A stretch of 57,941 nt of DNA from Alloalcanivorax mobilis. Its GTDB lineage: Bacteria > Pseudomonadota > Gammaproteobacteria > Pseudomonadales > Alcanivoracaceae. Position numbers and translations under genes: made by a program. This document shows, piece by piece, positions 9,588 to 53,318 of this stretch (position 1 is its first letter; the number at the start of each line of letters is the position of its first letter). The notes beneath the pieces are model-generated. The model saw only the letters and a list, made by a program, of their open reading frames with translations, searched no databases and was not told the DNA's origin. The stretch is taken from NCBI RefSeq assembly GCF_002864685.1, contig NZ_NMQZ01000039.1, positions 1 through 57,941 on the forward strand. Reading direction: 5' to 3'.

Positions 9588-9693
9588 AGCAACAAGCTGC
9601 AAGCGACAAGCCACAACGCGGAACAGACGCCAACGATCCGCCGGGCCTTGCCCGCGACCAGCGGTCTGCTTGCAGCCTGAAGCTTGCAGCGGG
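9588..9693. repeat. CAAGC-word inverted element
   Basis: The words CAACAAGCTGCAAGCGACAA (from 9590) and GCTTGCAGCCTGAAGCTTGC (from 9669) form imperfect inverted arms of about 25 nt around a GC-rich core. This is the weaker form of the heptamer-arm family detailed at 41513, 25735 and 38303. It fills the gap between gap and tesB. Confidence 0.5.
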
Positions 9694-9705
9694 CGCCCAG
9701 CGCCC

Positions 9706-10581
9706 TTAAACCGGCTCCGCGCCGGGGCGCAGGCGCATCAGGCCTTCCTGGGCCACCGAGGCGACCAGGGTGCCGTCTTCGCGATAGATAGCGCCGAAGG
9801 TCAGGCCGCGCGCGCCGGCGGCGCCGGGGCTTTCGCAGTGGTACAGCAACCATTCATCGATACGAAAATCATCGTAAAACCACATGGCGTGATCGAGGCT
9901 GGCGCACTGCACGTTGCCCTGCCAAAAGGTCATGCCGTGAGGCTGCATGGCGGTGCCCATGAAACCGAAATCGGAACAATAGGTCAGCAGCGCCCGCTGG
10001 GTCATGCGATCCGCCTGCACTGGATCGGGCACCCGGAACCAGATCTGCTTGAGCGGCTCGCGGGTTTCCGGCGTGAACGAGTTGCGCGGCGTCACCGGAC
10101 GGAATTCCACCGGCCGTTCACGCAGATAGGCGGCGCGGAACTTCTCCGGGATCTGCTCGGCCATCTTGAGGCGGCCCTGCTCGTCGCTGCCCAGTTCGTC
10201 CGGGTACGGCACATCCGGCATGGTGGCCTGATGGCGGGCGCCCTCTTCCTCGACCTGAAACGAGGTGGACAGGCTGAAAATCGGCCGCCCATGCTGGATC
10301 GCGTTGACCCGGCGGGTGGTGAAGCTCTTGCCGTCGCGAATCCGGTCCACGTCATAAATGATCGGCTGGCGGAAATCCCCCGGCCGCAAAAAATAGGCGT
10401 GCAGCGAGTGCACCGGGCGCTCCTCCGGCACCGTCATCGACGCCGCCAGCAACGCCTGCCCGGCCACCAGCCCCCCGAAAATGCTCTGCTGGCCATTGGC
10501 CTCGCTCTGCCCCCGGAACAGATTGTCTTCCAATCGTTCCAGATCGAACCGTTGCATCAGTTCCCGTACTGACTCTCGCAT
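9706..10581 (-). CDS. tesB: Acyl-CoA thioesterase II
   Basis: A 291-residue double-hotdog thioesterase that hydrolyses medium- and long-chain acyl-CoAs. The N-terminal hotdog carries FGGLVAGQALLAAS and VHSLHAYFLRPGD. The C-terminal hotdog carries ASLDHAMWFYDDFRIDEWLL and VASVAQEGLMRLR, which hold the family's Asp and Gln catalytic positions. ATG 10581 is preceded by GAGGAA at 8-9 nt; a longer start at 10605 has less support. It stands alone on the minus strand, divergent from mfd. In a lipid-degrading organism it may relieve CoA trapping (inference). Confidence 0.92.
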   Translation of the reverse strand: MRESVRELMQRFDLERLEDNLFRGQSEANGQQSIFGGLVAGQALLAASMTVPEERPVHSLHAYFLRPGDFRQPIIYDVDRIRDGKSFTTRRVNAIQHGRPIFSLSTSFQVEEEGARHQATMPDVPYPDELGSDEQGRLKMAEQIPEKFRAAYLRERPVEFRPVTPRNSFTPETREPLKQIWFRVPDPVQADRMTQRALLTYCSDFGFMGTAMQPHGMTFWQGNVQCASLDHAMWFYDDFRIDEWLLYHCESPGAAGARGLTFGAIYREDGTLVASVAQEGLMRLRPGAEPV

Positions 10582-10722
10582 TGCTTGTCGTTCCTCAGCG
10601 CACAAAACGCCGCAATGTTAGCACATAGCTGCACGCTGCACGCTTGCACGCGCCACGCTAAAACCCGTGCCGCCCACATAGCGGAGCGGCGCTGCCTAGC
10701 CCGCCTCGCCTTTCAGGCTCGG

Positions 10723-10872
10723 TTCGCGATCAGGGATCGCTCCCACAGTGGCGCTGTAGCAGGGCGTGCCGCGACGCGGAATGTTTTGTGGGAGCGGTCC
10801 TCGACCGCGAATCGGCGCTGCCTGGCCCGCCTCGTCTTTCAGGCTCGGTTCGCGATCAGGGATCGCTCCCAC
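10723..10872. repeat. REP-like cluster upstream of mfd
   Basis: Three 24-nt REP-type units: 10723-10746 and 10849-10872 (TTCGCGATCAGGGATCGCTC class), and 10788-10811 in the opposite orientation (GTGGGAGCGGTCCTCGACC class). They are related to the pair at 1-260. The rest of the tesB-mfd gap contains CACGCTGCACGCTTGCACGC words at 10629-10650 and TAGCGTCCAGCGTCTGGCGT at 10926-10945. Confidence 0.8.
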
Positions 10873-11002
10873 AGTGGCTCCGTGGAAGGTCGCCCCGATA
10901 CGGCGACGGTTTTGATTCTGGCTGTTAGCGTCCAGCGTCTGGCGTCCGGTTCCTTCCGCCATGCCCATCGTCTGCTACAATGCGCGCCCTCTGGAGGCAT
11001 TG

Positions 11003-14000
11003 ATGACCCTGTTACCCAACACTCCCCTGTTTCCCGCCGGCCATGAGCACTACCGCGATTGGCAAGGGCTTGGCGATGGCGCGCTGGCGGCGGTGCTGGC
11101 GGAGGCCGCCAGGGTGCCGGCGGCCGGCGCCCTGACCGCCAGCAAACCCGGGCCGCTGCTGGTGGCCGCGCCCAGCAGCAGCCGCGCGCAACAACTGACC
11201 GATGCGCTGACGTTCTATCTGGCCGGCAGCAACGTGCCGGTGATGCTGTTCCCCGATTGGGAAACCCTGCCCTACGATCTGTTCAGCCCGCATCAGGACA
11301 TCATCAGCGATCGCATCCGGGTATTGAACTGGCTGGGCACGGCGCGCGCCGGGGTGCTGGTGGTGCCGGTCAACACGCTGATGCAGCGGCTGGCGCCGCC
11401 GATGCACATCAGCGGCAACAGTTTTGCCCTGCGGGTTGGCGAGCGCTTCGACATGGAAGCCACCCGGGAACAGCTGGTCTCCTGCGGCTACCGCCAGCGC
11501 GACAACGTCTACGAGCACGGCGAGTTCGCGGTGCGCGGGGCGATCATGGACATCTTCCCGATGGGCTCCGACCAGCCGTTCCGGGTCGAACTGTTCGACG
11601 ACGAGATCGAATCCCTGCGGCTGTTCGACCCGGAGAGCCAGCGCTCCACCGGCCAGGTCGACGACATCAATCTGCTGCCCGCCGCCGAGTACCCGCTCAG
11701 CAGCGAAGGGGTGCGCCATTTCCGCAATGCGTTTCGCGACGCCTTCGATGTGGAACCGCGCAAGGTCACTCTGTACCAGGACGTGTCCGAAGGCATCGCC
11801 ACCCCGGGTGTGGAATATTACCTGCCGCTGTTCTATGACCAGCTCGCCACCCTGTTCGATTATTTGCCCGGCAACGCACGGGCGGTGGAAATGGCCGGCT
11901 GCGACGAGGCGGCGCGGCACTTCTGGGACGAAGTCAACGAGCGCTACGAATCCCGCCGCCACGATATTCGCCGGCCGATTCTGCCGCCCGCGTCTCTGTT
12001 TCTGCGACCCGAGGAGCTGAATGGCGCCTGGCAGCGGCTGCCCCGCGCCCGGCAGAAGGACTCCGCTCAGGCGGTGCGCTTCCCGGTGGCGCCGTCGCCG
12101 GATGTGTCCGCCGACGCCCGCGCGCGCAACCCGCTGGCGGCGCTGCACACCTTCGCCGACGCCCACCCGGACACGCGCATTCTGGTGGTGGCGGAAACCG
12201 CCGGCCGGCGCGAGGCGCTGCTGGAGCTGATGCAAAAAATCGGCATCCAGCCGGCGCTCAAGGACGGCTGGCAGGATTTCGTCGCTGATCCGCAACGCTG
12301 GAACCTCACCCGGGGCGAGTTGGACAGCGGCTTCCATGCCCCCGACCACGAAATTCTGGTGGTCACCGAGAGCCAGCTTTACGGCGAGCGCATTATGCAG
12401 CGCCGCCGGCGCCGCACCAGCGAGGAAAGCGGCAACGAAATGGGCATGCGCTCGCTGGGCGAGCTCAGCGCCGGCGCGGCGGTGGTGCATCTGGACCACG
12501 GCGTGGGCCGCTACCAGGGCCTGGTGCACATGACCGTGGACAATCAGGCCCACGAATTCCTGCTGCTGGAATACGCTGGCGGCGACAAGCTCTATGTGCC
12601 GGTTTCATCTTTGCACCTGATCAGCCGCTACGGTGGCGGCGACAGCCCGCCGCTGAACCGGCTCGGCACCGAGCAATGGAGCAAGGCGCGCCAGAAAGCG
12701 GCGGAAAAGATCAACGATGTGGCCGCCGAGTTGCTCAACACCTACGCGCGCCGCGAGGCGCGCACAGGGCGCGGCTTCCCGGTCGAGGCCGAGGAATACC
12801 AGCGCTTCGCCGCCGGCTTTCCGTTCGAGGAAACCCCGGACCAGGAAAGCGCCATTCGCGCGGTGCTCAGCGATATGCAGTTGGAAAAGCCGATGGACCG
12901 GCTGGTGTGCGGCGACGTCGGCTTCGGCAAAACCGAGGTTGCCATGCGCGCCGCCTTCGTGGCGGTGCAAAACGGCACCCAGGTAGCAATCCTGGTGCCC
13001 ACCACCCTGCTCGCCCAGCAGCACTACGAATCCTTTGTCGACCGTTTCGCCGACTGGCCGGTGAACGTCGAGGTGATGTCGCGTTTCCGCAGCGCCAAGG
13101 ACAAAGCCCAGGTGCTGGAGCGGCTCAAGGCCGGCAAGGTGGACATCGTGGTGGGCACCCACCAGCTTTTGCAGGAATCGGTGACGTTCGCCGACCTGGG
13201 GCTGATTATCGTGGACGAGGAACACCGCTTCGGGGTGCGCCACAAAGAGCGCCTCAAGGAGATGCGCGCCGAGTGCGACATCCTCACGCTGACCGCCACG
13301 CCGATCCCGCGCACCCTGAACATGGCGATGAGCGGCATGCGCGACATTTCCATTATCGCCACGCCGCCGCAGAAGCGGCTGTCGGTGAAAACCTTTGTGC
13401 AACAGCGCGACGGCACCGCCATCAAAGAGGCGATTCTGCGTGAGTTGCTGCGCGGCGGGCAGGTTTATTTTCTGCATAACGACATTGATACGATGGCGCG
13501 CACCGCCGAGGAACTGCGCGCCATGGTGCCCGACGCGCGCGTTGGCATCGCCCATGGGCAAATGCGCGAGCGCGAGCTGGAGGCGGTGATGGGCGACTTC
13601 TACCACCGGCGTTTCAACGTGCTGGTGTGCACCACCATCATCGAAACCGGCATCGACGTGCCCAGCGCCAACACCATCATTATCGAACGCGCCGACAAAC
13701 TCGGCCTGGCCCAGCTTCACCAACTGCGCGGCCGCGTCGGGCGCAGCCATCACCAGGCCTACGCCTACCTGATCACGCCACCGCCCAAGGCGATGACCAA
13801 GGACGCCCAGAAGCGGCTTGAAGCGATTGAAATGGCCACCGACCTGGGCGCCGGTTTCGTGCTCGCCAGCCAGGATTTGGAAATCCGCGGCGCCGGCGAA
13901 CTGCTCGGCGAAGAGCAGCACGGCAACATGGAAACCATCGGTTTTTCGCTCTACATGGAAATGCTCGAACAGGCGGTGGACGCCCTCAAGCGCGGCGAGC

Positions 14001-18136: not shown

Positions 18137-18548
18137 CGGCCCGATGGCCTGGCGGCTTCAACCACAATGCGCGCGAGCAAGCGCCCCGTCGTGAAGGCCA
18201 CGTGCGCGATTACCACATTGCGACATTCGGATACCGGCACGGAAAAAGGCTTACACAGAGATCGTAAAAGTTTCACGGTTTGACGACGGGGAAACGGAAA
18301 CAGCGGGGTTTGTTGAGCGGGGAGACAAGTTTCAGGCGGCAGGCTTCAGGCGGCAACACGGGCGATGCCGTGGTGGGTCGGAGGCCGTGCCCGCGCGGTT
18401 GCGTTGGACGTGTGACGTCGGACGTCGGACGTCGGACGCCAAAATTAAGACCGTCGCTGGCCGCGTGGTACGGCGTGGTTGCCGCCACCCGTGAAGACGC
18501 AGCCCCCTGAACACTGAACACTGAAAACTGAACACTCTTCCCAACGCC
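18137..18548. repeat. Mosaic intergenic repeats (CAGGCGG, GACGTCG, ACTGAACACTGAA words)
   Basis: No gene is seen in this gap of about 450 nt. It contains TTTCAGGCGGCAGGCTTCAG at 18328-18347, an AGGCCGTGCCCGCGC word near 18379, three GACGTCGG heptamers at 18414-18436, GACCGTCGCTGGCC at 18449-18462, and CTGAACACTGAACACTGAAA from 18508. These are the same word families found in other gaps, here chained without clear inverted arms. Confidence 0.6.
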
Positions 18549-23967: not shown

Positions 23968-24468
23968 GGAGGGGAAGATACAGGATGCAGGATGCAGGAT
24001 ACAGCGCGGGCACCGCCGTGCGGTGGTTTCAGGCTTCAGGCTTCAGGCTTCAGGCGTCTGACGTCTGACGTCTGACGTCTGACGTCTGGCGTCTGGCGTC
24101 TTAGAGCGCTGGACGCCGGACGCTGGACGCTGGACGCTGAACCCGAGACGGCGGGGCTTTGCGGCAGCGCGGGCAACGCTTGCGCAGCCGCAATGCTTTC
24201 CGTTCCGGGGTTTGATCTTAGCGTCTAGCGTCTCGCGTCTGGCGTCTGGCGTCTGGCGTCGGGCGTCTGGCGTCTGGCGTCTGGCGTCTGGCGTCTGGCG
24301 TCTGGCGTCTTAGAGCGCTGGACGCCGGACGCCGGACGCTGGACGCTTAACCCGAGACGGCGGGGCTATGCGGCAGTGCGGGCAACGCTTGCGTAGCCGC
24401 AATGCTTTCCGTTCCGGGTCTTGATCTTAGCGTCTAGCGTCTAGCGTCTGGCGTCTGGCGCATAGCCA
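23968..24468. repeat. Large heptamer array with a 209-bp tandem duplication
   Basis: No coding content. It opens with ACAGGATGCAGGATGCAGGA (23978-23997), then four TCAGGCT heptamers (24028-24056), then at least six GACGTCT/GGCGTCT heptamers. A unit beginning TTAGAGCGCTGGACGCCGGA starts at 24101 and again at 24310 (period 209). Each copy has a left arm of GGACGCx words, a core containing CCGAGACGGCGGGGCT, GGGCAACGCTTGCG and CCGCAATGCTTTCCGTTCC, and a right arm of AGCGTCT/GGCGTCT words. Between the copies about ten GGCGTCT heptamers run in tandem (24236-24308). The arms are inverted relative to each other, so each copy can fold into a long hairpin. Confidence 0.88.
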
Positions 24469-25098
24469 TCAAGCTCGGCCACCCCGAATGCCGCCGGCGA
24501 CGAACGGCAGCAGGTGCTCGGTGATGCGCGAGGCGGTGACGGTTTCGTTGAAGTCCTTTTTGCTGATGGTCTGCAACGATTCCATCCCCGAGAGAGTGAA
24601 AATCACCGCGCCCAGGCTGAAGTGCACGCGCCAGAACAGCTCCATGGGCGGCACGTCCGGCACCGAGGCGCGCAACACCGCCAGCACCTGCCGGAACACC
24701 TCGCCGTAATGGGCGCGCAGCCAGGTGCGCAGATGGTTCTGCGGCTGGCTGTAGGCTTGCCCGGAGAGGCGGAAAAAGATCATCGCCCGGCGCGGCTCGT
24801 CACCGTGGGAACCCAGCGCCAGGCGCGACACCATGGTCAGCAGCTTCTCAAGGGTCACGTCGCCGCTGCTTTCCAGTTCCTTGAGCTTGACGCTCAAGGC
24901 CTGACAAAAGGGGGTCAGGTAGCGTTCGAACACCGCCTGCACCAGGGCTTCCTTGGAGCCGAAATGGTAATTCACCGCCGCCAGATTAACGCCGGCCTTA
25001 CTGGTGATCGCCCGCAGGCTGGTCTCGGCGAACCCCTTCTGAGCGAACAGCACTTCCGCGGCATCGAGAATGCGTTTGACGGTATCGGATTGGGACAT
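24469..25098 (-). CDS. psrA: PsrA-like TetR-family regulator
   Basis: 209 residues. The N-terminal TetR HTH is ILDAAEVLFAQKGFAETSLR followed by AITSKAGVNLAAVNYHFGSK. The C-terminal ligand domain includes FWRVHFSLGAVIFTLSGMES. PsrA in Pseudomonas represses fatty-acid beta-oxidation genes, is released by long-chain acyl groups, and activates rpoS. Here the order psrA-DUF6586-topA on the minus strand, with lexA nearby, matches the P. aeruginosa neighbourhood. ATG 25098 has GAGG 6-7 nt upstream. A palindrome just upstream (25118-25140) suggests autorepression. Identity as PsrA rests on synteny, motif similarity and operator type. Confidence 0.85.
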   Translation of the reverse strand: MSQSDTVKRILDAAEVLFAQKGFAETSLRAITSKAGVNLAAVNYHFGSKEALVQAVFERYLTPFCQALSVKLKELESSGDVTLEKLLTMVSRLALGSHGDEPRRAMIFFRLSGQAYSQPQNHLRTWLRAHYGEVFRQVLAVLRASVPDVPPMELFWRVHFSLGAVIFTLSGMESLQTISKKDFNETVTASRITEHLLPFVAGGIRGGRA

Positions 25099-25734: not shown

Positions 25735-25884
25735 GCTTCAAGCTTCAGGCTGCAAGCTCCAACACGAATCGAGGTTGCCCGGTTTACGAAAGGCCAACGC
25801 CCGCGCCGTGACCGGTGCGCGGGCAGAGCCGTTCAACCCACTCACACGGCTGACGTGCTGTAGCTTGAAGCTTGTAGCTTGCCG
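25735..25884. repeat. CAAGCTT-word inverted element between topA and the DUF6586 gene
   Basis: Left arm 25735-25760 (GCTTCAAGCTTCAGGCTGCA...) and right arm 25858-25884 (GTAGCTTGAAGCTTGTAGCT...) are inverted sets of about four 7-nt words, around a core of about 97 nt. The right arm ends at the topA stop codon. Confidence 0.75.
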
Positions 25885-29400: not shown

Positions 29401-29465
29401 GTTGAACGTTAAAAGTTGAAAGGAGCGGCCTGATGGCCGCTTGCCGATCTCAACCTTCAACTTGC
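29401..29465. repeat. GTTAAAA-word inverted element after the usp gene
   Basis: Left arm 29401-29421 (GTTGAACGTTAAAAGTTGAA) and right arm 29451-29464 (TCAACCTTCAACTTG) flank a short core with the palindrome GCGGCC-TGAT-GGCCGC. It begins 6 nt after the usp stop, so it may act as a transcription terminator or mRNA-stabilising hairpin. Confidence 0.7.
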
Positions 29466-31764: not shown

Positions 31765-31862
31765 GGGTGTTCAGTGTTCAGTTTAGGAGCAGGCCTGGCC
31801 AGCGGCGTTTTTGATTTTGATTTTGATCTTAGCGTCTAGCGTCTAGCGTCTAGCGTCTGGCG
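31765..31862. repeat. Mosaic of TTCAGTG, TAGGAGC and AGCGTCT words
   Basis: Between convergent genes: GTGTTCAGTGTTCAGTTTAG (31768-31787), GGAGCAGGCCTGGCCAGCGG (31786-31805), three TTTTGAT words, then four AGCGTCT heptamers ending at 31862. No Rho-independent terminator is obvious. This is the same vocabulary as at 24.0-24.5 kb and 36.86-37.01 kb. Confidence 0.65.
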
Positions 31863-37013: not shown

Positions 37014-37043
37014 GATATTCTCTGGCGCGCTAATCGTGGATAA

Positions 37044-37149
37044 GAAGTGTTCAGTGTCTGGTTTCCAGTGTTCAGAAAGGGCGCGGGCACGGGCTCTGCC
37101 CCACCCCGGCCTCGCTCGTGTTGCAGCTTGAAGCTTGAAGCTTGCAGCC
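37044..37149. repeat. TTCAGTG and AAGCTTG word clusters upstream of the pyrD stop
   Basis: AAGTGTTCAGTGTCTGG and CCAGTGTTCAGAAAGG (37047-37079) form a loose inverted pair. AGCTTGAAGCTTGAAGCTTG (37125-37144) is a tandem heptamer run ending 10 nt from the pyrD stop. Confidence 0.6.
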
Positions 37150-37153
37150 CGCC

Positions 37154-38302: not shown

Positions 38303-38366
38303 GGCCACAAGCTTCAAGCTGAAAGGGCCGTTGCAACCTGAAGCTTCGAGCTTGGAGCTTGTGGCC
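38303..38366. repeat. CAAGCTT-word inverted element
   Basis: Left arm 38303-38324 (GGCCACAAGCTTCAAGCTGA) and right arm 38345-38366 (TTCGAGCTTGGAGCTTGTGG...) are inverted with about 20 of 22 matches around a 20-nt core. The AGGCCGTGCC word lies at 38268, and its reverse complement near 38388. The element sits between pepN and pyrD. Confidence 0.8.
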
Positions 38367-38415: not shown

Positions 38416-41052
38416 TTATAAAATCCGATCAAGCACCTCCGCCAGGTTGGCGGAGGTGCCGTCGCGGACGGTTTGCAGGGCGTCGCGCAGTGGCTGTTGC
38501 AGCGGCGGCGCCAGGCGCTCCAGGCGGGCGGCGCCATTGGCGAGCCGGGCGGCGATCTGCGGGTTGATGCCGTCGAGCTTTTTCAGTGCCGTGGCGAACA
38601 GGCGGTAGCCGCTGCCGTCGGCGGCGTGGAACGCCGAGGGGTTGCCGTTCACCAGGGTGCCGATCAGCGCCCGCACCCGGTTCGGCAGGGTCCATTCGAA
38701 TGCCGGGTGATCCAGCAACGCTCGCGCCCGGGCCACGGTGTCCGCGCCGGGCACGGTGGCTTGCACGGCGAACCATTGGTCGATGACCAGGGCTTCGTCG
38801 TGCCAGCGGGCCTCGAAGGCACGCAGCGCCTGATTGGCGCCGTCCAGATCGTTGTGCACCAGGGCGCGCAGGGCGCCCAGTTCCTCGGTCATGCAGGTGG
38901 GGTGATCCAGGCTGCGCTGCAGGTGCGCGGTGATTTGATCGGCTTCGATCAGGCCGGCGCCGGCGGCGCTGGCCAGGTAGCCCAGCGCCAGTTGCCGCAG
39001 ACGGCGCTTGCCCATGGCGTCGCCGTCGGCGCGGTAGCGCGGCTCATAAAGCGTTTCCGCGAGCCGCCACCAATGTTCGGCGAGCGCCTCGCCGAGCGCC
39101 GCGCGCAGGCCGCTGACGGCGGCATGCACCGGTTGCGGGTCCAGGGGCGAATGGCGATCGCCAACCGCTGTCTCGGTGGGCAGGGTGAGCAGCAGGGCGG
39201 CCTCCGCCGGGTCTTCGCCGGCGCGCTCAATCACCTGTTCCAGCACCGGCCGCAGCCGTGCCACCTGCGCCGCTGACGACCCGGGGTGGTCGATCATTTC
39301 CGCCAGCGCCATGAAATAGAGCCGTTGGGCGGCGTCCCAGCGGCAGAAACCGTCGGTGTCGAACGCCAGCAGAACATGCAATTGCGCTTCCTGGAACGGA
39401 TAACGCAGCTCCACCGGCGCCGAGAAGCCGCGCAGCAGCGAGGGCACCGGGCGGGCCCGGGCCGGGAAGTTAAACGTCTGCTCCGCCTCGCCCAGAGTCA
39501 CCACGGTTTCCACATCACCGGCATCGTTGAGCGGCAAGGCCTGGCCCTGATCGTCGAGCAGCGCCAGCCGGACCGGGATCATTAGCGGTTGTTTGTCGGG
39601 CTGCCCGGGCGTGGCAGGGGTGTGCTGGCGCAGCGTGAGCCGGTACTCGCCTTGGCCCTGGGCCGGCTCGAAGGCGTCCTCGACGGTCACCACCGGGGTG
39701 CCCGCCTGGCTGTACCAGCGCTTGAACTGGCTCAGATCCTGGCCGGAAATCTCCTCCATGCAGGCAACGAAGTCGTCGCAGGTCACCGCCTGGCCGTCGA
39801 AGCGCTGGAAATACAGATCGGTGGCGCGGCGGAAATCGTCGGCGCCCAGCAGCTGGCGCTGCATGCGCACGATCTCCGAGCCTTTTTCATAGATCGTCAG
39901 GGTGTAGAAATTATCGATCTTCTGGTATTCCGCCGGGCGCACCGGGTGGGCCATGGGCCCCTGATCCTCGGGGAACTGATGGTTGATCAGGAAATCCACG
40001 TTCTCCACCCGCACCACCGTGCGGGAGTTCATGTCGGAGGAAAATTCCTGATCCCGGAAGACCGTGAAGCCTTCTTTGAGACTCAGTTGAAACCAGTCCC
40101 GGCAGGTGACCCGGTTGCCGCTCCAGTTGTGGAAATATTCGTGGGCGACCACCGATTCGACCCGCTCAAAGGCGGCGTCGGTGGTGGTGGCCGGGTGCGC
40201 CAGCACGCAGGAGGTGTTGAAGATATTGAGGCCCTTGTTCTCCATGGCCCCCATATTGAAGTGGCTCACGGCGACAATCTGGAACAGGTCGAGATCGTAT
40301 TCACGGCCATACACCTGCTCGTCCCAGGCCATCGCCCGCTTGAGCGAATCCATGGCGTGGTCGAGCTTGTCCAGATCACGGTGCTCGGCGTACAGGCGCA
40401 ACGCGATCTCACGGCCGGTCTCGGTGGTAAAGGTGTCTTCCAGGCAGGCCAGATCACCGGCTACCAGGGCGAACAGATAGCAGGGTTTGGGAAACGGGTC
40501 TTCCCAGGTGACAAAATGCCGGCCGCCCGGTTCGTCACCACGGGCCACCGGATTGCCATTGGAGAGCAGCAGCGGGTAGCGCTGCTTGTCCGCGTGCAAG
40601 GTGGTGGTGAAGCGGCTGAGCACGTCGGGACGGTCCGGAAAGAAGGTGATGCGGCGGAACCCTTCGGCTTCGCATTGGGTGCAGTACATGCCGTTGGAAC
40701 GGTACAGGCCTTCCAGCGCGGTGTTGTTCTCCGGCTCGATGCGCACCCGGGTGCTCAGCAGGCAGCGCTCGGGCAGCCCGGCAATCGTCAGGCGGCCGCC
40801 TTGCAGCTGGTACTCGCTCTGTTTGAGTGCCCGGCCATCCACACTGAGTGCTTCCAGGCGCAGATGATCGCCGTTGAGCACCAGTTCATCGGGGCGGTCC
40901 TGGCGCGCCGGGTTGCGCACCAGTTGCAGCTCGGTGCTGACCACGGTGTGGCCGTCGTGAAGGTCCACGTCCAGGCGGGTGTGCTCAACCAGATAGGCCG
41001 GCGGCTGGTAATCCGCCAGTCGCGTCACCGCGGTCGGGTTGCCGTCTCTCAT
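38416..41052 (-). CDS. pepN: Aminopeptidase N
   Basis: 878 residues (E. coli 870), M1 metallopeptidase. The exopeptidase motif is GAMENKGLNIF. The zinc site HEYFHNWSGNRVT begins at His304 with the Glu downstream in LKEGFTVFRDQEF. It removes N-terminal residues from peptides in the cytoplasm. The C-terminal helical domain appears complete (ends AEVLDRIL). Its start overlaps the stop of the YeaC-like gene, so the two are coupled. Confidence 0.97.
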   Translation of the reverse strand: MRDGNPTAVTRLADYQPPAYLVEHTRLDVDLHDGHTVVSTELQLVRNPARQDRPDELVLNGDHLRLEALSVDGRALKQSEYQLQGGRLTIAGLPERCLLSTRVRIEPENNTALEGLYRSNGMYCTQCEAEGFRRITFFPDRPDVLSRFTTTLHADKQRYPLLLSNGNPVARGDEPGGRHFVTWEDPFPKPCYLFALVAGDLACLEDTFTTETGREIALRLYAEHRDLDKLDHAMDSLKRAMAWDEQVYGREYDLDLFQIVAVSHFNMGAMENKGLNIFNTSCVLAHPATTTDAAFERVESVVAHEYFHNWSGNRVTCRDWFQLSLKEGFTVFRDQEFSSDMNSRTVVRVENVDFLINHQFPEDQGPMAHPVRPAEYQKIDNFYTLTIYEKGSEIVRMQRQLLGADDFRRATDLYFQRFDGQAVTCDDFVACMEEISGQDLSQFKRWYSQAGTPVVTVEDAFEPAQGQGEYRLTLRQHTPATPGQPDKQPLMIPVRLALLDDQGQALPLNDAGDVETVVTLGEAEQTFNFPARARPVPSLLRGFSAPVELRYPFQEAQLHVLLAFDTDGFCRWDAAQRLYFMALAEMIDHPGSSAAQVARLRPVLEQVIERAGEDPAEAALLLTLPTETAVGDRHSPLDPQPVHAAVSGLRAALGEALAEHWWRLAETLYEPRYRADGDAMGKRRLRQLALGYLASAAGAGLIEADQITAHLQRSLDHPTCMTEELGALRALVHNDLDGANQALRAFEARWHDEALVIDQWFAVQATVPGADTVARARALLDHPAFEWTLPNRVRALIGTLVNGNPSAFHAADGSGYRLFATALKKLDGINPQIAARLANGAARLERLAPPLQQPLRDALQTVRDGTSANLAEVLDRIL

Positions 41053-41493: not shown

Positions 41494-41628
41494 CCGTGCC
41501 GGTCGAGAGCCCGTTGAAAGTTAAAGGTTAAAAGTTGAAACGCGGGCGGGGCCGCACAATACGGCAAGGCCGTGCCCGCGCTTGAAGCGGTCCAGAACCA
41601 CTTCAACTTTTAACCTTTAACTTTCAAC
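41494..41628. repeat. GTTAAAG-word inverted element A (perfect 27-bp arms)
   Basis: Left arm 41513-41539 and right arm 41602-41628 are perfect 27-bp inverted copies beginning GTTGAAAGTTAAAGGTTAAA. The 62-nt core has CGCGGGC (41541-41547) pairing with GCCCGCG (41574-41580). The left flank CCGTGCCGGTCGAGAGCCC (41494-41512) recurs beside the element at 47213. The right arm ends 5 nt before the nadK stop, so read from nadK the element lies directly downstream and could terminate its transcript. Confidence 0.92.
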
Positions 41629-41632: not shown

Positions 41633-42523
41633 TCAATTCCCATCCCCGGGGCGGGTGCTCCAGCCGAGTTTGGAGCGGCATGACTGGTAAAAGTCGTGGC
41701 CGGGGGGGTGGATGAGTTGCAGCCGGTGGGGCTTTTTGCGGATCGCGATCACGTCGTCCACTTGCAGGCGGGTGCCGGCGGTGCCGTCGCAACTGACCAG
41801 GGGTTTCACCTTCTCGGTGGTGATCTGGATCTTGATCTCGCTGTTGCCGTCCACCACCAGCGGGCGGCTGGTCAGGGTGTGGGGGTTGAGCGGCACCAGC
41901 ACCATGGCGTCCAGGCGCGGATGCATGATCGGGCCGCCACCGGACAGCGCGTAGGCGGTGGAGCCGGTGGGCGTGGAGATGATCAAGCCATCGGAGCGCT
42001 GGCCATACACGAAATGACCGTCGATCAGCAGTTCGAAATCGATCATGTGAACGCTGTCACCGGAGAGCAACACCACGTCGTTGAGGGCGCTGCCCTCGCC
42101 GATCACCGCCTTGCCCCGGCGCACTTCCATGTCGAGCAGAAAGCGCCGCTCAATGCTGTATTCGCCGTCCAGCACCTGGCCCACCCGAGCTTCGATCTCG
42201 GAGGGCAGAATGTCGGTGAGAAACCCCAGATGACCCCGGTTGATGCCCAGCACCGGCACGTCAAAGCGCGCCAGGGTGCGCGCGGCGCCCAGCAGGCTGC
42301 CATCGCCACCGATCACGATCACCAGGTCGCAGGCTTCGCCCATCTGCGCCGGGCCGGCGGCTTGCAGGCCCATTTCCGGCAGGCTGTCGGCAATCGCTTT
42401 GTCGAGGATCACGGTGCAATCGCGACCGTGCAGAAAGTGAATCAGCTGGCGCATGGAATACAGCGCCTGTTCACTCTCGGAGCGGGCGATCAATCCGATA
42501 TTGCGAAATTTTTCCTGGGGCAC
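41633..42523 (-). CDS. nadK: NAD kinase
   Basis: 296 residues. The NAD kinase motifs are VIGGDGSLLGAARTLARFDV (GGDGS), INRGHLGFLTDI, NDVVL and STPTGSTAYALSGGGPIMHP. It phosphorylates NAD to NADP. GTG 42523 is used as start (MPQEKFRNIGLIARSESEQA); a GACAGG lies about 12 nt upstream. It ends right beside the inverted repeat at 41602-41628. Confidence 0.95.
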   Translation of the reverse strand: MPQEKFRNIGLIARSESEQALYSMRQLIHFLHGRDCTVILDKAIADSLPEMGLQAAGPAQMGEACDLVIVIGGDGSLLGAARTLARFDVPVLGINRGHLGFLTDILPSEIEARVGQVLDGEYSIERRFLLDMEVRRGKAVIGEGSALNDVVLLSGDSVHMIDFELLIDGHFVYGQRSDGLIISTPTGSTAYALSGGGPIMHPRLDAMVLVPLNPHTLTSRPLVVDGNSEIKIQITTEKVKPLVSCDGTAGTRLQVDDVIAIRKKPHRLQLIHPPGHDFYQSCRSKLGWSTRPGDGN

Positions 42524-47193: not shown

Positions 47194-47372
47194 CCGTGCC
47201 GGTCAAGAGCCCGTTGAAAGTTAAAGGTTAAAAGTTGAAGGGTGGTCGCCGAGGGGCTTTCCCGCGGCCTGCGGCCGTGGAAGGCCGCCGCGAGGGCTCC
47301 CTTGGCGCGGGCACGGCCTTACCGTCGTGTGGGCCCCGCCCGCGTTTTAACTTTTAACTTTTAACGTTCAAC
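47194..47372. repeat. GTTAAAG-word inverted element B (core flipped relative to element A)
   Basis: Left arm 47213-47239 is identical over 27 bp to the left arm at 41513, and the preceding CCGTGCCGGTCAAGAGCCC (47194-47212) matches the element A flank with one change. The right arm 47344-47372 (GTTTTAACTTTTAACTTTTA...) is a less exact inverse. The core segment 47305-47344 (GCGCGGGCACGGCCTTACCG...) matches the reverse complement of element A's core (41541-41581), not its forward strand. The extra 65 nt at 47240-47304 is self-complementary GC-rich sequence. Confidence 0.85.
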
Positions 47373-47394
47373 TGGCGAAGCCATCCCTTTACAA

Positions 47395-47412
47395 ACCAAG
47401 CGCTTGCTTGGT
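47395..47412. promoter_or_regulatory. Candidate TetR operator of the atu operon
   Basis: ACCAAGC-GCTT-GCTTGGT, a perfect 7-bp inverted repeat with a 4-nt centre. It begins just after a -35-like TTTACA (47388-47393) and covers the spacer, 43 nt before the atuA start. A repressor here would block polymerase. Confidence 0.65.
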
Positions 47413-47454
47413 AGCTTACTGAACACCTTTACTCATCGCAATCAGGACATCCGC

Positions 47455-49236
47455 ATGACCGAACCCGTCCGCATCGGCTGCGCCGCCGGTTTCTGGGGTG
47501 ACACCAACTCCGCTGCTTTTCAGTTGGTGCGTCAGGCCGACATTGATTATCTGGTGTTCGACTATCTGGCCGAGGTGACGTTGTCGATCATGGCCGGTGC
47601 GCGGATGAAGGACCCGGCGGCGGGGTACGCCCACGATTTCGTGACCCAGGTGATGGCGCCGCTGGCGAAAGAGATCAAAGAGAAGCGCATCAAGGTGATC
47701 AGCAACGCCGGGGGCGTCAATCCCCATGCCTGCCGGGAGGCCCTGCAAAAGGCCTTCGCGGAGGCTGGCGTGGAGATGAACATCGCCCTGGTGGAAGGCG
47801 ACGATCTGAACCCGCGCCGGGGCGAGTTCGCCGAATGCCGGGAGCTGGACAGCGGCGAGCCGATGCCGCCGATGACCGTGACCATGAACGCCTACCTCGG
47901 CGCCCTGCCGATCAAGCAGGCGCTGGACGACGGCGCCGATCTGGTGCTCACCGGCCGCATCGCCGATTCGGTGCTGGCATTGGGCCCGCTGATGCACGAG
48001 TTCAACTGGTCGGTGGACGATTACGACAAGCTTGCCCAGGGCTCTCTGGCCGGCCATGTGATTGAATGCGGCGCCCAGTGCAACGGCGGCAATTTCACCG
48101 ACTGGCGCCTGGTGCCGGATTTTCACAACATGGGTTTTCCCATCGCCGAGTGCCACGCCGACGGCAGCTTCGTGATCGCCAAGCCAGAGGGCACCGGCGG
48201 CCTGATCACCACCGCCACGGTGGGCGAGCAGATCGTCTATGAGATTGGTGATCCACGCGCCTACATTCTGCCCGACGTGGTGTGCGATTTTACCGGCGTG
48301 ACCCTGGAGCAGGCCGGCGACAACCGGGTGCGGGTCAGCGGCGCTTGCGGGCGGCCGCCCACCGACACCTATAAAGTGTCCGCCACCTGGCCGGATGGCC
48401 AGCGCATCACCGCCTCGTTTCTGATGGCCGGCATCGACGCGCCGGATAAAGCCCGCGTGGTGGCTGACGCCATTGTCAAAAAAGTCGGCGGCCTGTTCCA
48501 ACAAATGGGCCTGGCGCCGTTCCGCGAGGTGAACATCGAAATTCTCGGCACCGAAACCACCTACGGCGCCAACGGCCGGCGCGGCGACACCCGCGAGGTG
48601 GTGGTGAAAATCGCCGCCTTGCACGACGACCGCAAAGCGCTGGGGCTGTTTGCCCGGGAGATCGCCCAGGCCGCCACCGGCATGGCGCCGGGGCTCTCCG
48701 GCCTGGTCGGCGGGCGGCCCAAGCCGATGCCGCGTATTCGCCTGTTCTCGACCCTGGTGCCGAAAACCGCCGTCACCGCCAGCGTGGACCTCAATGGCGA
48801 GCGCCGCGAGGTGCCGATCCCCGCCGGCGAAGCGCTCGACCCGGCCACCCTGCCCGACACCAACGGCACGGAAACCGCCACCGGCGAGGTCGAGGTGCCG
48901 TTGGTGAAACTGGCCTGGGCGCGCTCCGGCGACAAGGGCGACCACGCCAATATCGGGGTCATCGCGCGCCACGCCCGCTACCTGCCCTACTTGCGCGCCG
49001 CGCTCACCGAGCAGGCCGTGGCTGACTACATGGAACATGTGCTCAACCACCCCGCCAGCGCCGTGCAACGCTGGGAAATGCCCGGCTTCAACGCCTTCAA
49101 TTTCCTGCTCAAAAACGCCCTCGGCGGCGGCGGCATCGCCAGCCTGCGCATCGACCCGCAAGGCAAAGCCTTCGCCCAGCAGTTGTTGGATTTTCCGGTG
49201 CCGGTGAGCGCGGAGATCGCGGAGAGCGTGCGATGA
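47455..49236 (+). CDS. atuA: AtuA-like acyclic terpene utilisation protein (DUF1446)
   Basis: 593 residues. DUF1446 N-terminal domain ([59 protein letters not shown]) followed by a C-terminal AtuA-type domain ([20 protein letters not shown]). AtuA is required for growth on citronellol/geraniol in Pseudomonas, but its reaction is not settled. ATG 47455 follows AGGACATCCGC. It is the first gene of the operon with repeats in its leader. Confidence 0.9.
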
Positions 49237-49238: not shown

Positions 49239-49379
49239 GGCCGGACGCTGGACGCCGGACGCCGGACGCTTCAACCCGTGGCGGAAAGGCCCGGCGTGTT
49301 TTCTGCAGCGTGTTAGGAAACACGCCGATAATCTCAGCACCGGGTTAAGCGTCGAGCGTCCGGCGTCCGGCGTCCGGCC
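49239..49379. repeat. GGACGCC-word inverted element between atuA and the SDR gene
   Basis: Left arm 49239-49278 (GGCCGGACGCTGGACGCCGG...) and right arm 49341-49379 (CGGGTTAAGCGTCGAGCGTC...) are nearly perfect inverses made of five 7-nt words each, ending AACCCG/CGGGTT. Core 62 nt. The left arm starts 3 nt after the atuA stop. Confidence 0.9.
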
Positions 49380-49413
49380 AACCATCCATAATCGTATAGA
49401 GGACCTTGCCCCC

Positions 49414-50286
49414 ATGCCCTACCGCTCCGTCTTTCACCCCAATCTGTTCGCCGATAAAACCGTGATCGTCACCGGCGGCGGGTCCGGCATTGGCCGGTGC
49501 ACCGCCCACGAACTGGCGGCACTGGGCGCCCGGCTGGTGCTGATCGGCCGCAAGGCGGAAAAACTGCAGACCGTGGCCGCTGAACTGCTTGAGGACACCG
49601 GGCGCGAAGCCCTGTGCTTCGCCTGCGACATCCGCGATGAGGAAGCCGTACGCGACACCGTGGCCGCCATCTATCAGCAAACCGGCCGCGTGCACGGGCT
49701 GGTCAACAACGCCGGCGGCCAATTCCCCGCGCCGCTGGCAGCGATCAATCAGAAGGGCTGGGAAACGGTGGTGCGCACCAACCTCACCGGCGGTTTTCTG
49801 ATGGCCCGCGAAGTCTTTACCCAGGGCATGAACGAGCACGGCGGCGCCATCGTCAATATCGTCGCCGACATGTGGGGCGGCATGCCCGGCATGGGCCACT
49901 CCGGCGCCGCCCGCGCCGGCATGGTCAATTTTACCCAGACCGCCGCCTTCGAGTGGGCCCAGTGTGGCGTGCGCGTGAACGCGGTGGCGCCGGGCTGGAT
50001 CGCCTCATCGGGCATGGACACCTACCCGGAGGGTTTCAAGCAAACCCTGAAAACCCTGAAAGCGGCGGTGCCGCTCAAGCGCATGGGCCTGGAATCGGAA
50101 GTGTCCTCGGCGATCTGCTTTCTGCTCAGCGAGGGCGCCGCTTTTATCAGTGGCGACACGCTGCGCATCGACGGCGCCGCCAGCCAGGGCAATATGTCGA
50201 TCTTCCCGCTCGCCGAGCACACCAACAGCCAACCCTACGATGGCTTTCACCGCGCCATCGTTCCGGACATTTTCAAGGATCTGTAA
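49414..50286 (+). CDS. atuB: SDR-family dehydrogenase/reductase, AtuB-like
   Basis: 290 residues. NAD(P)-binding TVIVTGGGSGIGRCTAHELA and NNAGG are intact. The catalytic YxxxK is replaced: the aligned segment reads GMGHSGAARAGMVNFTQTAA, the HSGAARAG form found in peroxisomal trans-2-enoyl-CoA reductases, with no Lys. AtuB is proposed to act in citronellol/citronellal oxidation. With this site an enoyl-CoA reductase-like role is possible. The stop overlaps the next gene (TAATG). Confidence 0.85.
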   Translation: MPYRSVFHPNLFADKTVIVTGGGSGIGRCTAHELAALGARLVLIGRKAEKLQTVAAELLEDTGREALCFACDIRDEEAVRDTVAAIYQQTGRVHGLVNNAGGQFPAPLAAINQKGWETVVRTNLTGGFLMAREVFTQGMNEHGGAIVNIVADMWGGMPGMGHSGAARAGMVNFTQTAAFEWAQCGVRVNAVAPGWIASSGMDTYPEGFKQTLKTLKAAVPLKRMGLESEVSSAICFLLSEGAAFISGDTLRIDGAASQGNMSIFPLAEHTNSQPYDGFHRAIVPDIFKDL

Positions 50287-51902
50287 TGCCCGTGATCGAA
50301 TCCAGCCTCGACACGCAAAGCGAGGCGTACGCTCAGAACCGCCAGGCCCTGCTGGAGGCGGTGGCGCAGTTCCGCGCCATCGAGCAGCAAGTGCTGGACA
50401 CCGCCGAAAGCAAACGGGAAAAGTTTGAAAAACGCGGCCAGCTTCTGCCCCATGAGCGGGTCGCCCGGCTGCTGGACCCGGGGTCGCCGTTTCTGACCCT
50501 GATGAATCTGGGCGGCTATAAGATGCACGACGACCGCGACGGCACCGAAGCCGGCGGCGGCGTGATCGCCGGCATCGGCTATGTAAGTGGCGTGCGCTGT
50601 CTGGTGTCGGCGTCCAATTCCGCCATCAAGGGCGGCACGGTAACGCCCTCCGGGCTGAACAAAACCCTGCGCCTGCAACGCATCGCCCTGGAAAACAAAC
50701 TGCCGGTGGTGAGCCTGGTGGAATCCGGCGGCGCCAACCTCAATTACGCGGCGGAGGTGTTCGTGGAAGGCGCGCGCACCTTCGCCAACCAGGCGCGGCT
50801 GTCCGCCGCCGGCATCCCGCAGATCACCGTGGTGCACGGCAACGCCACCGCCGGCGGCGCCTACCAGCCCGGCTTGTCCGACTACGTGGTAATGGTGCGC
50901 AACCGGGCGAAGATGTTTCTCGCCGGGCCGCCGCTGCTCAAGGCCGCCACCGGCGAAATCGCCAGCGACGAGGACCTGGGCGGCGCCGAGATGCACGCCG
51001 GCGTCGCCGGCACCGCCGAATACATCGCCGAGAACGACGCCGATGGCATTCGCCATGCCCGCGATATCGTCGCCAAACTGGGCTGGCAAGACAGCGCCCG
51101 CGACCGGCGGCGCGGTGACTGGCAGCCCCCCCGCCACGACGCGCAGGAACTGCTGGGCATCGTGCCCGCGGACACCAAGACACCCTACGATGTGCGCGAA
51201 CTTCTGGCGCGCATCGCCGACGCTTCTGACTTTCTCGATTTCAAGAACGATTGGGACGCCGCCACCGTGTGCGGCTGGATCAGCATTGAAGGCCAGCCCG
51301 TGGGCGTGCTCGGCAACAACGGCCCGATTACCCCGCGCGGCGCCGCCAAGGCCGCCCAGTTTATTCAGCTTTGCGACCAGACCCGCCGGCCGCTGCTGTT
51401 TCTGCACAACACCACCGGCTTTCTGGTCGGCACCGATCCGGAACACAACGGCGTGATCAAACACGGCTCGAAAATGATTCAGGCGGTGGCCAACGCGCGC
51501 GTGCCGAAGATTTCGATTCTGGTGGGCGGTTCCTACGGCGCCGGCAACTACGCCATGTGTGGTCGCGGCCTGGACCCGCGCTTTATTTTCGCCTGGCCCA
51601 ATTCCCGGGTGGCGGTGATGGGCGGCCAGCAGGCCGGCACGGTGCTGCGTATCGTCGCCGAAGCCAAACAGCGCGCCAACGGCCTGGAACCCGACGAAAA
51701 AGTGCTCGACATGCTGCAGCAAAGCACCGCCCAGAAACTGGACGCGCAATCCACCGCGCTCTACGGCACCGCCCGCCTCTGGGACGACGGCATCATCGAC
51801 CCCCGCGACACCCGCAAAGTGCTGGCGTACGTGTTGGATATTTGCCGGCAGGCGGACGACAAACAGCTGCATCCGAATACGTTCGGGGTGGCGAGGTTTT
51901 AA
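50286..51902 (+). CDS. atuC: Geranyl-CoA carboxylase, carboxyltransferase (beta) subunit
   Basis: 538 residues, acyl-CoA carboxylase beta family. Two carboxyltransferase halves: VVSLVESGGANLNYAAEVFV and VVHGNATAGGAYQPGLSDYV in the N-half, LLFLHNTTGFLVGTDPEHNG and ILVGGSYGAGNYAMCGRGLD in the C-half. It moves CO2 from biotin to geranyl-CoA. A methylcrotonyl-CoA carboxylase is very similar in sequence; the atu neighbours (AtuA, AtuD, AtuE) favour the geranyl enzyme. The ATG overlaps the SDR stop. Confidence 0.87.
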   Translation: MPVIESSLDTQSEAYAQNRQALLEAVAQFRAIEQQVLDTAESKREKFEKRGQLLPHERVARLLDPGSPFLTLMNLGGYKMHDDRDGTEAGGGVIAGIGYVSGVRCLVSASNSAIKGGTVTPSGLNKTLRLQRIALENKLPVVSLVESGGANLNYAAEVFVEGARTFANQARLSAAGIPQITVVHGNATAGGAYQPGLSDYVVMVRNRAKMFLAGPPLLKAATGEIASDEDLGGAEMHAGVAGTAEYIAENDADGIRHARDIVAKLGWQDSARDRRRGDWQPPRHDAQELLGIVPADTKTPYDVRELLARIADASDFLDFKNDWDAATVCGWISIEGQPVGVLGNNGPITPRGAAKAAQFIQLCDQTRRPLLFLHNTTGFLVGTDPEHNGVIKHGSKMIQAVANARVPKISILVGGSYGAGNYAMCGRGLDPRFIFAWPNSRVAVMGGQQAGTVLRIVAEAKQRANGLEPDEKVLDMLQQSTAQKLDAQSTALYGTARLWDDGIIDPRDTRKVLAYVLDICRQADDKQLHPNTFGVARF

Positions 51903-51906
51903 TGCG

Positions 51907-52003
51907 GTTGAAAGTTAAAAGTTAAAAGTTGAAAGGGCGGCTCCGCCGAAAATCTCTACCAATGCCGACCACGGAGCGCGCCTTTTAACTTTTAACTTTT
52001 AAC
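51907..52003. repeat. GTTAAAA-word inverted element between atuC and atuD
   Basis: Left arm 51907-51934 (GTTGAAAGTTAAAAGTTAAA...) and right arm 51981-52003 (CCTTTTAACTTTTAACTTTT...) around a 46-nt core that contains GCGGCTCCGCCG. It begins 5 nt after the atuC stop. Confidence 0.88.
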
Positions 52004-52057
52004 CCGCCGGAAAACAATGAACCCGTTTTAACGAATACTAACACCCAGGAGCGCCCC

Positions 52058-53215
52058 ATGCTGTTTACCCAGGAACACGAAGAGCTGCGCCGTACGGTGC
52101 GCAATTTTATCGACAAAGAAGTGAACCCTTATGTGCCGGAGTGGGAGGCGGCGGGCCGGTTTCCGATCCATGAGGTGTTCAAGAAGATGGGCGATCTGGG
52201 TTTGCTCGGGGTGACCAAACCCGAGGAGTACGGCGGCATGGGGCTGGATTATTCCTACGGCCTGATTGTCGCCGAGGAAATTGGCGCCGCCCATTGCGGT
52301 GGTGTGCCGCTGTCGATCGGCGTGCAAACCGACATGGCCACGCCGGCGCTGGCGCGTTTTGGCTCCGATGCCTTGAAACGCGACTATCTCGCGCCGGCCA
52401 TTGCCGGCGACATGGTGGCGGCGATCGCGGTGTCCGAACCCCAGGCCGGCTCCGATGTGGCGCAAATCAAGACCAGCGCCCGCAAGGACGGCGATGACTA
52501 CGTGATCAACGGCACCAAGATGTGGATCACCAATTCCCCCAGCGCCGATTTCTTTTGCCTTCTCGCCAACACCTCCGAAGACAAGCCGCACGTCAATAAG
52601 TCCTTGATCGTGGTGCCCGGCGATACCGCTGGCATCACCGTGGACAAGCCGCTCAATAAGCTGGGCATGCGCAGCTCGGAAACCGCCCAGGTGTTTTTCG
52701 ACAACGTGCGGGTGCCGCGAAGCAACCTGATCGGCCAGGAAGGCATGGGCTTCATGATGCAGATGATGCAGTTCCAGGAAGAGCGCCTGTGGGGCGCCGC
52801 CAACTCCATCAAGGGCTGTGAAAAGGTGATCGCCGCGACCATTGAGTACGCCCGCGAGCGGCAGGTGTTTGGCATGCCGTTGCTCGATAATCAGGCGGTG
52901 CACTTCCGTCTCGCCGAACTGCAAACCGAAGTGGAACTGCTGCGCGCTCTGGTGTGGCAGGCCTGCGAAACCTACATCAACGGCGGCGACGTGCTGCGCC
53001 TAGCGTCGATGGCCAAGCTCAAAGCCGGGCGCCTGTCCCGCGAGGTCGCCGACGGCTGCATGCAGTATTGGGGCGGCAACGGTTTTATGTGGGACAACCC
53101 GGCCAGCCAGCTCTACCGCGACGGCCGCCTCGGCTCCATCGGCGGCGGCGCCGACGAAATCATGCTCGGCATTATTTGTAAGACCATGGATATGTTGCCG
53201 GGTAAGAAAAAATAA
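52058..53215 (+). CDS. atuD: Citronellyl-CoA dehydrogenase-like acyl-CoA dehydrogenase
   Basis: 385 residues, FAD-dependent acyl-CoA dehydrogenase. Motifs: AIAVSEPQAGSDVAQIKTSA (FAD contact), YVINGTKMWITNSPSADFF, and the C-terminal DGCMQYWGGNGFMWDNPASQ with YRDGRLGSIGGGADEIML. In the atu route it makes cis-geranyl-CoA from citronellyl-CoA. GGAG lies 7 nt before ATG 52058. Family members of other substrate range are hard to exclude; the operon decides. Confidence 0.88.
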   Translation: MLFTQEHEELRRTVRNFIDKEVNPYVPEWEAAGRFPIHEVFKKMGDLGLLGVTKPEEYGGMGLDYSYGLIVAEEIGAAHCGGVPLSIGVQTDMATPALARFGSDALKRDYLAPAIAGDMVAAIAVSEPQAGSDVAQIKTSARKDGDDYVINGTKMWITNSPSADFFCLLANTSEDKPHVNKSLIVVPGDTAGITVDKPLNKLGMRSSETAQVFFDNVRVPRSNLIGQEGMGFMMQMMQFQEERLWGAANSIKGCEKVIAATIEYARERQVFGMPLLDNQAVHFRLAELQTEVELLRALVWQACETYINGGDVLRLASMAKLKAGRLSREVADGCMQYWGGNGFMWDNPASQLYRDGRLGSIGGGADEIMLGIICKTMDMLPGKKK

Positions 53216-53217
53216 GA

Positions 53218-53318
53218 GTTGACAGTTTAAAGTTAAAAGTTAAAGGCGGCTCCGTAAACGAGCACGCCAGCTTTGCGACGAAGCCGCCCTTGCAACTTTT
53301 AACCTGTAACTTTCAACT
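53218..53318. repeat. GTTAAAA-word inverted element between atuD and atuE
   Basis: Left arm 53218-53244 (GTTGACAGTTTAAAGTTAAA...) and right arm 53292-53318 (GCAACTTTTAACCTGTAACT...) around a 47-nt core with GGCGGCTCC...CGCCC. It begins 2 nt after the atuD stop. Confidence 0.85.

Follow-up and report, generated by a model that had tools for sequence, protein, structure and literature searches.

A 57,941-nucleotide (nt) stretch of the draft genome of the marine bacterium Alloalcanivorax mobilis (contig NZ_NMQZ01000039.1, referred to below as the window) carries a family of intergenic elements, each built from two inverted arrays of tandem 7-nt words around a core. These are read here as non-coding insertion elements similar to miniature inverted-repeat transposable elements (MITEs), whose terminal heptamer arrays change in concert; the odds of this reading are put at slightly better than even (about 0.52). 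As a rule, both arms of an element share one word family. The elements were described in an earlier note on the window, which reported inverted heptamer arms in ten intervals, and the intergenic inverted heptamers are confirmed as real. Ungapped complementary arms were found in nine of the ten intervals, each scoring above all 200 dinucleotide shuffles (p = 0.005); the interval 29401-29465 is weak, the other nine having a period-7 self-match of 0.62-0.90.

Occurrence of the elements

In the window, 20 self-match runs of at least 10 nt occur at lag 7, while the other lags from 4 to 15 give 0-2 runs, except lag 14 with 10. The own-genome sample consisted of the window, which is contig 33 in the numbering used here, and 40 further stretches, together 815,283 bases or ~20% of the 4.1-Mb draft genome. 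It contains 117 period-7 arrays, 82 of which have a complementary partner no more than ~200 nt away. The wider search for inverted tandem heptamers that the earlier note had proposed gave 53 non-overlapping elements in these bases, mostly behind stop codons, when an inverted-arm detector was set to period 7; at periods 5, 6, 8, 9, 10 and 11 it gave 0, 7, 2, 4, 3 and 0 elements. The detector is ungapped, and the window elements at 9588, 25735, 29401 and 38303 lie outside the 53, of which at least one (L092:18719, inside a called gene) resembles a GC-rich coding repeat.

Using the same detector, 39 elements were found in 29 loci (549 kb) of other Alcanivoracaceae and none in 50 loci (989 kb) from outside the family, where period-7 arrays are not in excess (3, vs 0-10 at other periods); locus L027 was excluded from both sets. 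When 432 intergenic gaps were shuffled 20 times with dinucleotide composition preserved, no element appeared, compared with 49 in the real gaps. These controls speak against a chance or assembly artefact, an explanation in whose favour nothing was found and which is given practically no credence.

Beyond the family, three copies of the pattern GTKRAHA match 14 of 369 genomes, own genome counted, and among the matching loci examined from other genomes one is inverted (L234, genome G127). Longer stretches of such genomes held two elements in G294 (120 kb) and none in G292 (100 kb), G239 (80 kb), G170 (20 kb) or G204 (17 kb). The arrays of G294, a distant gammaproteobacterium, are made of GTGAATA/GTGAAAG heptamers (L283, L285); two of them are inverted pairs with 32-nt cores and with words that differ in part between the arms. 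Arrays of ACTGAAA/ACTGAAC (L084, L091, L092, L101, L110, L115, L120 and window 18507-18536) are mostly unpaired, unlike those of other words.

Words, arms and cores

After removal of exact duplicates and of elements at most 25 nt from a locus end, 113 unique elements remained, with a median length of 141 nt (middle half, 101-162 nt), arms of 15-61 nt (median 29) and cores of 13-249 nt (median 77). The layout is a heptamer array, a border (often CGCG), the core, a second border and the inverted heptamer array. Read from outside to inside, the arm words are GTTNAAA (A), GTTNCAA (N), GCYNCAA (C), GATNCAG (D), GTKRAYA (T), GMYNGAC (G) and some rarer ones, the grouping into families being our own. 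The constant architecture with differing words that the earlier note had claimed is thus borne out.

Arrays were classed singly to sidestep the detector's demand for complementary arms, and those 5-260 nt apart were taken as adjacent pairs. Among 77 such pairs with assigned words, 61 were of the same family and facing each other, two of the same family pointing apart, one in tandem and 13 of different families; the corresponding figures for the 41 pairs of own genome were 32, two, one and six. An earlier tally, in which 111 of 113 elements had two arms of the same family, was set aside as non-independent because the detector requires complementary arms and unassigned pairs had been scored as equal; the array tally was therefore used. 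When at least two units were required, 97 of the 113 elements had one named family, nine had both arms unassigned, six had one arm unassigned and one had different families.

The words had been described as unrelated, a claim that did not hold for the principal families. GTTGAAA, GCTGCAA and GATGCAG are each one or two substitutions away from GTTGCAA, and the distance from the first G to CGCG, taken modulo 7, is 0-2 in 33 of 34 A, nine of nine C, 16 of 16 D and eight of eight N arms having CGCG (chance, 3/7); the borders of T and G words are different ones. A core of ~100 nt, called X1, could be aligned in eight elements, of which four from own genome and two from genome G003 have A arms, one from G006 has mixed A/N arms and one from G009 has D arms; in this alignment the words switch while the units stay in register and the CGCG border is kept. 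The core of the A-type element at window position 47209 is 77% identical over 100 nt to that of a D-type element in G009 (L214:6342; E = 1.8e-16). Single-linkage clustering, which took part of the named loci so as not to count a species twice, gave one cluster of 31 members; as single linkage can chain, the pairwise E-values were relied upon. Among the twelve best element pairs listed from own genome, identity is 80-94% over 72-197 nt. Four outer elements enclose another heptamer element, and the loop is shorter than 30 nt in 18 of 115 elements. In G-type cores, a conserved inner hairpin, GTGTTTYCTG...CAGRAAACAC, was seen by eye between CTAAACCC and GGGTTTAG.

Arrays of mixed words also occur; in one from G006, GTTAAAA is outermost and is followed by GTGAATA. 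In the gap at 10543 of G003 (L264), a GCTGCAA arm of ~12 perfect units stands opposite a right arm of ~5 units, with an A-type arm inside, and these unequal arms are possibly the result of a recent expansion. The idea that the words serve as stop codons in three frames suits GTTAAAA and GCTAGAC, fails for GCCGGAC and GCTTCAA, and was dropped.

Comparison of orthologous gaps

Orthologous gaps were collected from 13 genomes of the genus, own genome included, by means of reciprocal best matches. Of 1787 gap pairs, elements were present in both gaps of 67, in a single gap of 288 (163 and 125) and in neither gap of 1432, which corresponds to an odds ratio of 4.7 (~3.2 by our own arithmetic when the 45 different-word pairs alone are used). 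The words were different in 45 of the 67 shared pairs and the same in 22, where different means an arm similarity score below 13, so that near words such as GTTGAAA and GTTGCAA can fall among them. All these pair counts (recurrence, words and inverted cores) share ancestry and are non-independent. Homologous cores were found in 16 of the 67 shared pairs, nine in direct and seven in inverted orientation. Three inverted cases are the firmest: in the 49237 gap, the cores of G006 and G009 match at 86% over 87 nt and have flanks and D arms in common; in the 38153 gap, those of these two genomes match at 74% over 70 nt; and in the 47107 gap, those of own genome and G003 match at 70% over 109 nt.

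For 43 gaps that carry an element and have an element-less ortholog, the median length was 205 nt, compared with 92 nt in the orthologs (p = 9e-8). Since the gaps with an element exceed their element-less counterparts in length, the elements are regarded as insertions. Taken with the cores common to several loci and with the nesting, this goes against the earlier note where it preferred other causes to one ancestral mobile sequence. When the gaps were viewed side by side, many element-less sites carried remnants, repetitive extragenic palindrome (REP) elements or other repeats.

Position relative to genes

The 53 elements of own genome are distributed over 27 co-directional, 16 convergent and six divergent gaps, with four in called genes or at edges; gap length alone would predict 29.2, 8.1 and 11.7 for the three kinds of gap. 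In co-directional gaps the median distance from the upstream stop to the start of the element is 4 nt, and the range from -15 to 31 nt takes in 24 of 27 elements, as it does 30 of 34 co-directional elements in the loci of other Alcanivoracaceae. Those loci held one convergent element (8.2 expected) and four divergent ones (6.2 expected) and thus lack the convergent excess of own genome. Within the window, the claim that the position just after stop codons is constant stood for nine of the ten intervals, at 1-50 nt behind a stop, and fell for 47213-47372, which lies between divergent genes.

Possible mechanism and alternative explanations

According to the favoured reading, an enzyme acting in trans would recognise the heptamer termini; mobility of this kind is suggested by the dispersal, nesting and presence or absence of the elements. 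The arrays would be homogenised by slippage within an arm together with exchange or templating between the inverted arms, so that new words would spread over all units and drift between lineages. Exchange between inverted arms would also invert the cores, and other elements may use the loop as a secondary site to land in. Slippage or templating that keeps both arms on one word thus has a possible place within the MITE-like reading. A stronger version, in which the arrays are actively rewritten by copying one word into every unit at either end, the core being kept, is considered improbable; if it were correct, an element family could exchange its recognition word as a whole (as with GTTRAAA, GTTNCAA and GATNCAG around a single core), perhaps evading or tracking the protein that reads it.

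Several observations weigh against the MITE-like reading. Neither a parent transposon nor a target-site duplication was found: the former was sought in 1.89 Mb, with 10 of 20 genes between far-apart arrays annotated by Pfam and ~20% of own genome covered, and for the latter the longest direct repeat in 14-nt flanks was 3.19 vs 3.15 in permuted flanks, with element ends uncertain by a few nt. Own copies of at least 140 nt are at most 83% identical, save one adjacent duplicate (94%), and a recent jump is consequently not seen. The gap without its element measures 65 nt vs 92 nt in element-less orthologs (p = 0.004), a shortfall that simple insertion does not predict. CGCG is missing from 27 A, 20 C, 8 D, 30 T and 38 G arms, and where it is present in the T and G families (six and five arms) it lies in other phases (3-4 for T, 4-6 for G), which leaves the membership of these two families in the set of related words unsupported. 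No relative was detected for 43 of 117 cores, and 42 of the 45 different-word pairs have cores between which no relationship was detected; most changes of word in one gap therefore look like the arrival of another element and not like drift in place. The inverted pairs are non-independent, one of them involves a palindromic REP and some are short. Lastly, if whole arms were copied from each other, the order of units should be mirrored between them; the match was 0.889 vs 0.857 for shuffled order (mean p = 0.535), a small effect that is not convincing.

It could also be supposed that two layers are superimposed, pure heptamer hairpins being a basic insertion or local repeat and the cores separate mobile elements that landed in their loops. 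The 18 loops below 30 nt and the four nested elements would suit such a history, as would two gaps compared by eye: at 23968 a REP lies inside the core in G001, G011 and G012 and not in G002, while at 25707 own genome and G003 both have C-type arms around differing cores. Independent landing would, however, give random phase, whereas 66 of 67 CGCG-bearing arms of four word families fall within three of seven phases and units of different words are in register on one core; this explanation is accordingly held to be unlikely, although it deserves some weight. Growth and drift of the arms at a fixed hairpin behind the stop, through slippage and template switching and with transposition playing no part, would account for the dominance of period 7, for the mixed arrays (as in G006) and for related species that have arms of different but near words behind the same stop at nearly equal distance. 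It does not explain the lengthening of gaps or the homologous cores at unlinked loci, nor does it agree with the unrelated cores in 42 of 45 different-word pairs, and it appears improbable.

A role as transcription terminators or stabilisers of mRNA 3' ends, with selection on hairpin shape as the earlier note had suggested, is in keeping with the median start of 4 nt behind the stop in co-directional gaps, with the 16 convergent elements (8.1 expected) and the six divergent ones (11.7 expected) and, by eye, with TTTT directly behind the GC stem of A-type elements. The C, D and G types have no such U tract by eye, and 288 of the 355 element-bearing orthologous gap pairs have the element on one side only. 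Selection for pairing in RNA should leave more G.U than A.C wobble mismatches in the transcribed orientation; the counts in 60 elements were 55 and 53, and two smaller, earlier sets gave 34 vs 20 (own genome) and 11 vs 15 (other Alcanivoracaceae). With this lack of strand bias and a unit order that is barely mirrored, the hairpin-shape claim was not upheld, and the terminator explanation is judged improbable. The earlier interpretation as a whole is partly supported.

Search for a driver

The scan for a parent transposon considered complementary solo arrays 250-7000 nt apart. The 10 genes with Pfam annotation comprised nine ordinary or cargo genes and one ISL3-family transposase (L114:9679-10968), which sits between facing A arrays. 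It belongs to an ISL3 insertion sequence on contig 4 of own genome (L114:7655-11026) that also carries MerR, cation-efflux and signal-peptidase-II genes. Because this sequence has its own inverted ends (7655-7678 and 11003-11026), splits the left arm of an A-type element and is flanked on both sides by AAAGTTAA, it is considered an insertion into an element, and its transposase was rejected as the parent. ISL3 transposases are present in all 13 genomes. Between the arrays of L018 lies an AtuA-like gene that is homologous to window gene 47404-49236 (78% identity).

The Y1 (RAYT) transposases were examined as drivers through three Y1 matches, L123-L125. Elements should flank Y1 genes if these were responsible; none do in these loci (~3.3 kb each), so a Y1 driver is disfavoured. 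One unpaired heptamer array lies by L125, and REPs flank L124. RVT_1 reverse transcriptases, considered as writers of the arms, occur in seven of the 13 genomes and are missing from own genome, G002, G003, G005, G007 and G010; with none found in own genome this role is unlikely. No match was found for the alternative named in the earlier note, under which every copy would belong to a single known family of MITEs or REPs that has a cognate transposase. In the window, Rfam at gathering score gave two tRNAs and one TwoAYGGAY RNA, none of them at an element.

Elements and other repeats in the window

The elements and arrays of the window are as follows; strand is given for the unpaired arrays, and the paired elements are unstranded.

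9588..9693: C-type element with GCYNCAA arms, 13 nt downstream of the stop codon of gene 9706-10557 (-)
18407..18438 (+): unpaired heptamer array (GTCGGAC), complementary partner absent within ~200 nt
24028..24460: G-type composite that has GMYNGAC arms and includes a tandem duplication of 209 nt, at most 9 nt from the stop of 24469-25098 (-)
25735..25884: C-type element, directly behind the stop of 25885-28623 (-)
29401..29465: A-type element (GTTNAAA), short or degenerate, with a weak right arm
31830..31862 (+): unpaired heptamer array (GCTAGAC, right-arm orientation)
37121..37148 (+): unpaired heptamer array (GCTTCAA, right-arm orientation)
38303..38366: short-looped C-type element, 50 nt downstream of the stop codon of 38416-41052 (-)
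41513..41628: A-type element downstream of the stop codon of 41633-42523 (-), with 100% complementarity between its 27-nt arms
47209..47376: A-type element with ~100-nt X1 core, between divergent genes and not downstream of a stop codon
49239..49379: G-type element, 3 nt downstream of the stop codon of 47404-49236 (+), containing the inner hairpin GTGTTTTCTG...AGGAAACAC
51907..52003: A-type element, 5 nt downstream of the stop codon of 50286-51902 (+)
53216..53319: A-type element, 3 nt downstream of the stop codon of 52058-53215 (+)

The interval first noted as 24101-24468 is part of the block 24028-24460. At 29401-29465 the left arm has three units and the right arm ~2, and the arm pair is absent at the threshold used; the gene upstream of this interval ends at 29395. 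In congeners, the gap of 25735..25884 holds a C-type element in G003 and a GATNCAG element in G009, and the gaps of 38303..38366 and 49239..49379 hold GATNCAG elements in G006 and G009, those of the latter gap with mutually inverted cores. At 51907..52003, relatives have by eye GTTRAAA, GTKAAYA, GTKGAYA, GTTNCAA, GCTACGA or ATTGATA-like arms, or none. The acyl-CoA dehydrogenase encoded at 52058-53215 is closest, among named relatives, to those of Alloalcanivorax species and Alcanivorax metagenome-assembled genomes (89-93% protein identity).

Repeats of other kinds were also observed. REP-type elements (TGTGGGAGCGGTC...GACCGCGAA) form tandem units of 130 and 126 nt at 1-253 and 10681-10914, and the same REP flanks the Y1 transposase at G000:C44:28221 (L124), apparently a cognate pair. 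The Rfam TwoAYGGAY RNA lies at 36668-36805 (-) with 51.8 bits (cut-off, 43). It is followed at 36855-37015 by a 43-nt inverted repeat, TAGGAGCAGGCCCAGCCAGCGACGG, which is 95% complementary and has a related copy at 31784-31824. The segment 34001-36000 has a GC content of 0.53, compared with ~0.60-0.69 in most 2-kb steps, and is possibly acquired DNA; 34556-37153 is without a called gene. At 54141-54303 there is a 52-nt inverted repeat with CCCTCTCCCTGTCCCTCTCCC arms, 81% complementary and 59 nt apart.

Comparison with known systems

Bacterial MITEs are short, non-coding and dispersed, have inverted termini, can be nested and vary in presence and absence. The heptamer elements resemble them as short non-coding sequences with terminal inverted repeats that are inserted relative to element-less orthologous sites (43 gaps); they differ in having neither a target duplication nor a found parent and in the variation of terminal words between copies of one core. 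REP and REPIN sequences are short inverted non-coding repeats in gaps that are associated with RAYT transposases. The present elements have heptamer arrays instead of the REP palindrome and do not lie beside the three Y1 genes, though REPs of another type do occur in own genome. The attC sites (GTTRRRY) were dropped as a relative on account of their opposite polarity. No publication on heptamer-armed elements in Alcanivoracaceae was recognised from titles and the openings of abstracts, a search that leaves most of the subscription literature uncovered and absence unproven.

The nearest published system is that of the inverted GGGAATC heptamers of Xanthomonas (Rehm et al. 2015, PMC4692102). These GGGNATC repeats have a period of 7 and 2-26 units, with 70 inverted pairs in Xcc and 75 in Xac. 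They have a preferred strand relative to the adjoining gene, those downstream are mostly at most 50 bp from the stop, they are scarce between divergent genes, and 83% are in the same context in two species. The period, the inverted pairing, the site behind stops and the low number in divergent gaps (six in own genome vs 11.7 expected) are shared with the elements described here. The Xanthomonas heptamer is a single G-rich word thought to fold as a quadruplex, whereas three GGG tracts were found in none of the 113 left arms here. The many words, the changes of word at orthologous gaps, the cores shared across words, the nesting and the core inversion are not reported in the part of PMC4692102 that was available.

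The TAACTGA repeats of Beggiatoaceae, cyanobacteria and Bacteroidetes are intergenic tandem heptamers in direct orientation; one inverted case is given among ~170 sets, most lie upstream of starts and related words are rare (MacGregor 2015, PMC4679880). By our own phasing, their opposite strand can be read as GTTATCA, which is similar to the GTKRAYA of the present elements. Heptamers have been described as over-represented in bacterial intergenic DNA, with polymerase slippage as a suggested cause (a 2007 survey, as cited in PMC4692102). In Alloalcanivorax they would instead be the termini of insertion elements, and their words change across 13 genomes while the site and the architecture, and in some cases the core, stay the same. 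Comparing strains thereby becomes a way to test how heptamer repeats arise, and the elements would offer a natural example of two inverted ends that change in a coordinated way.

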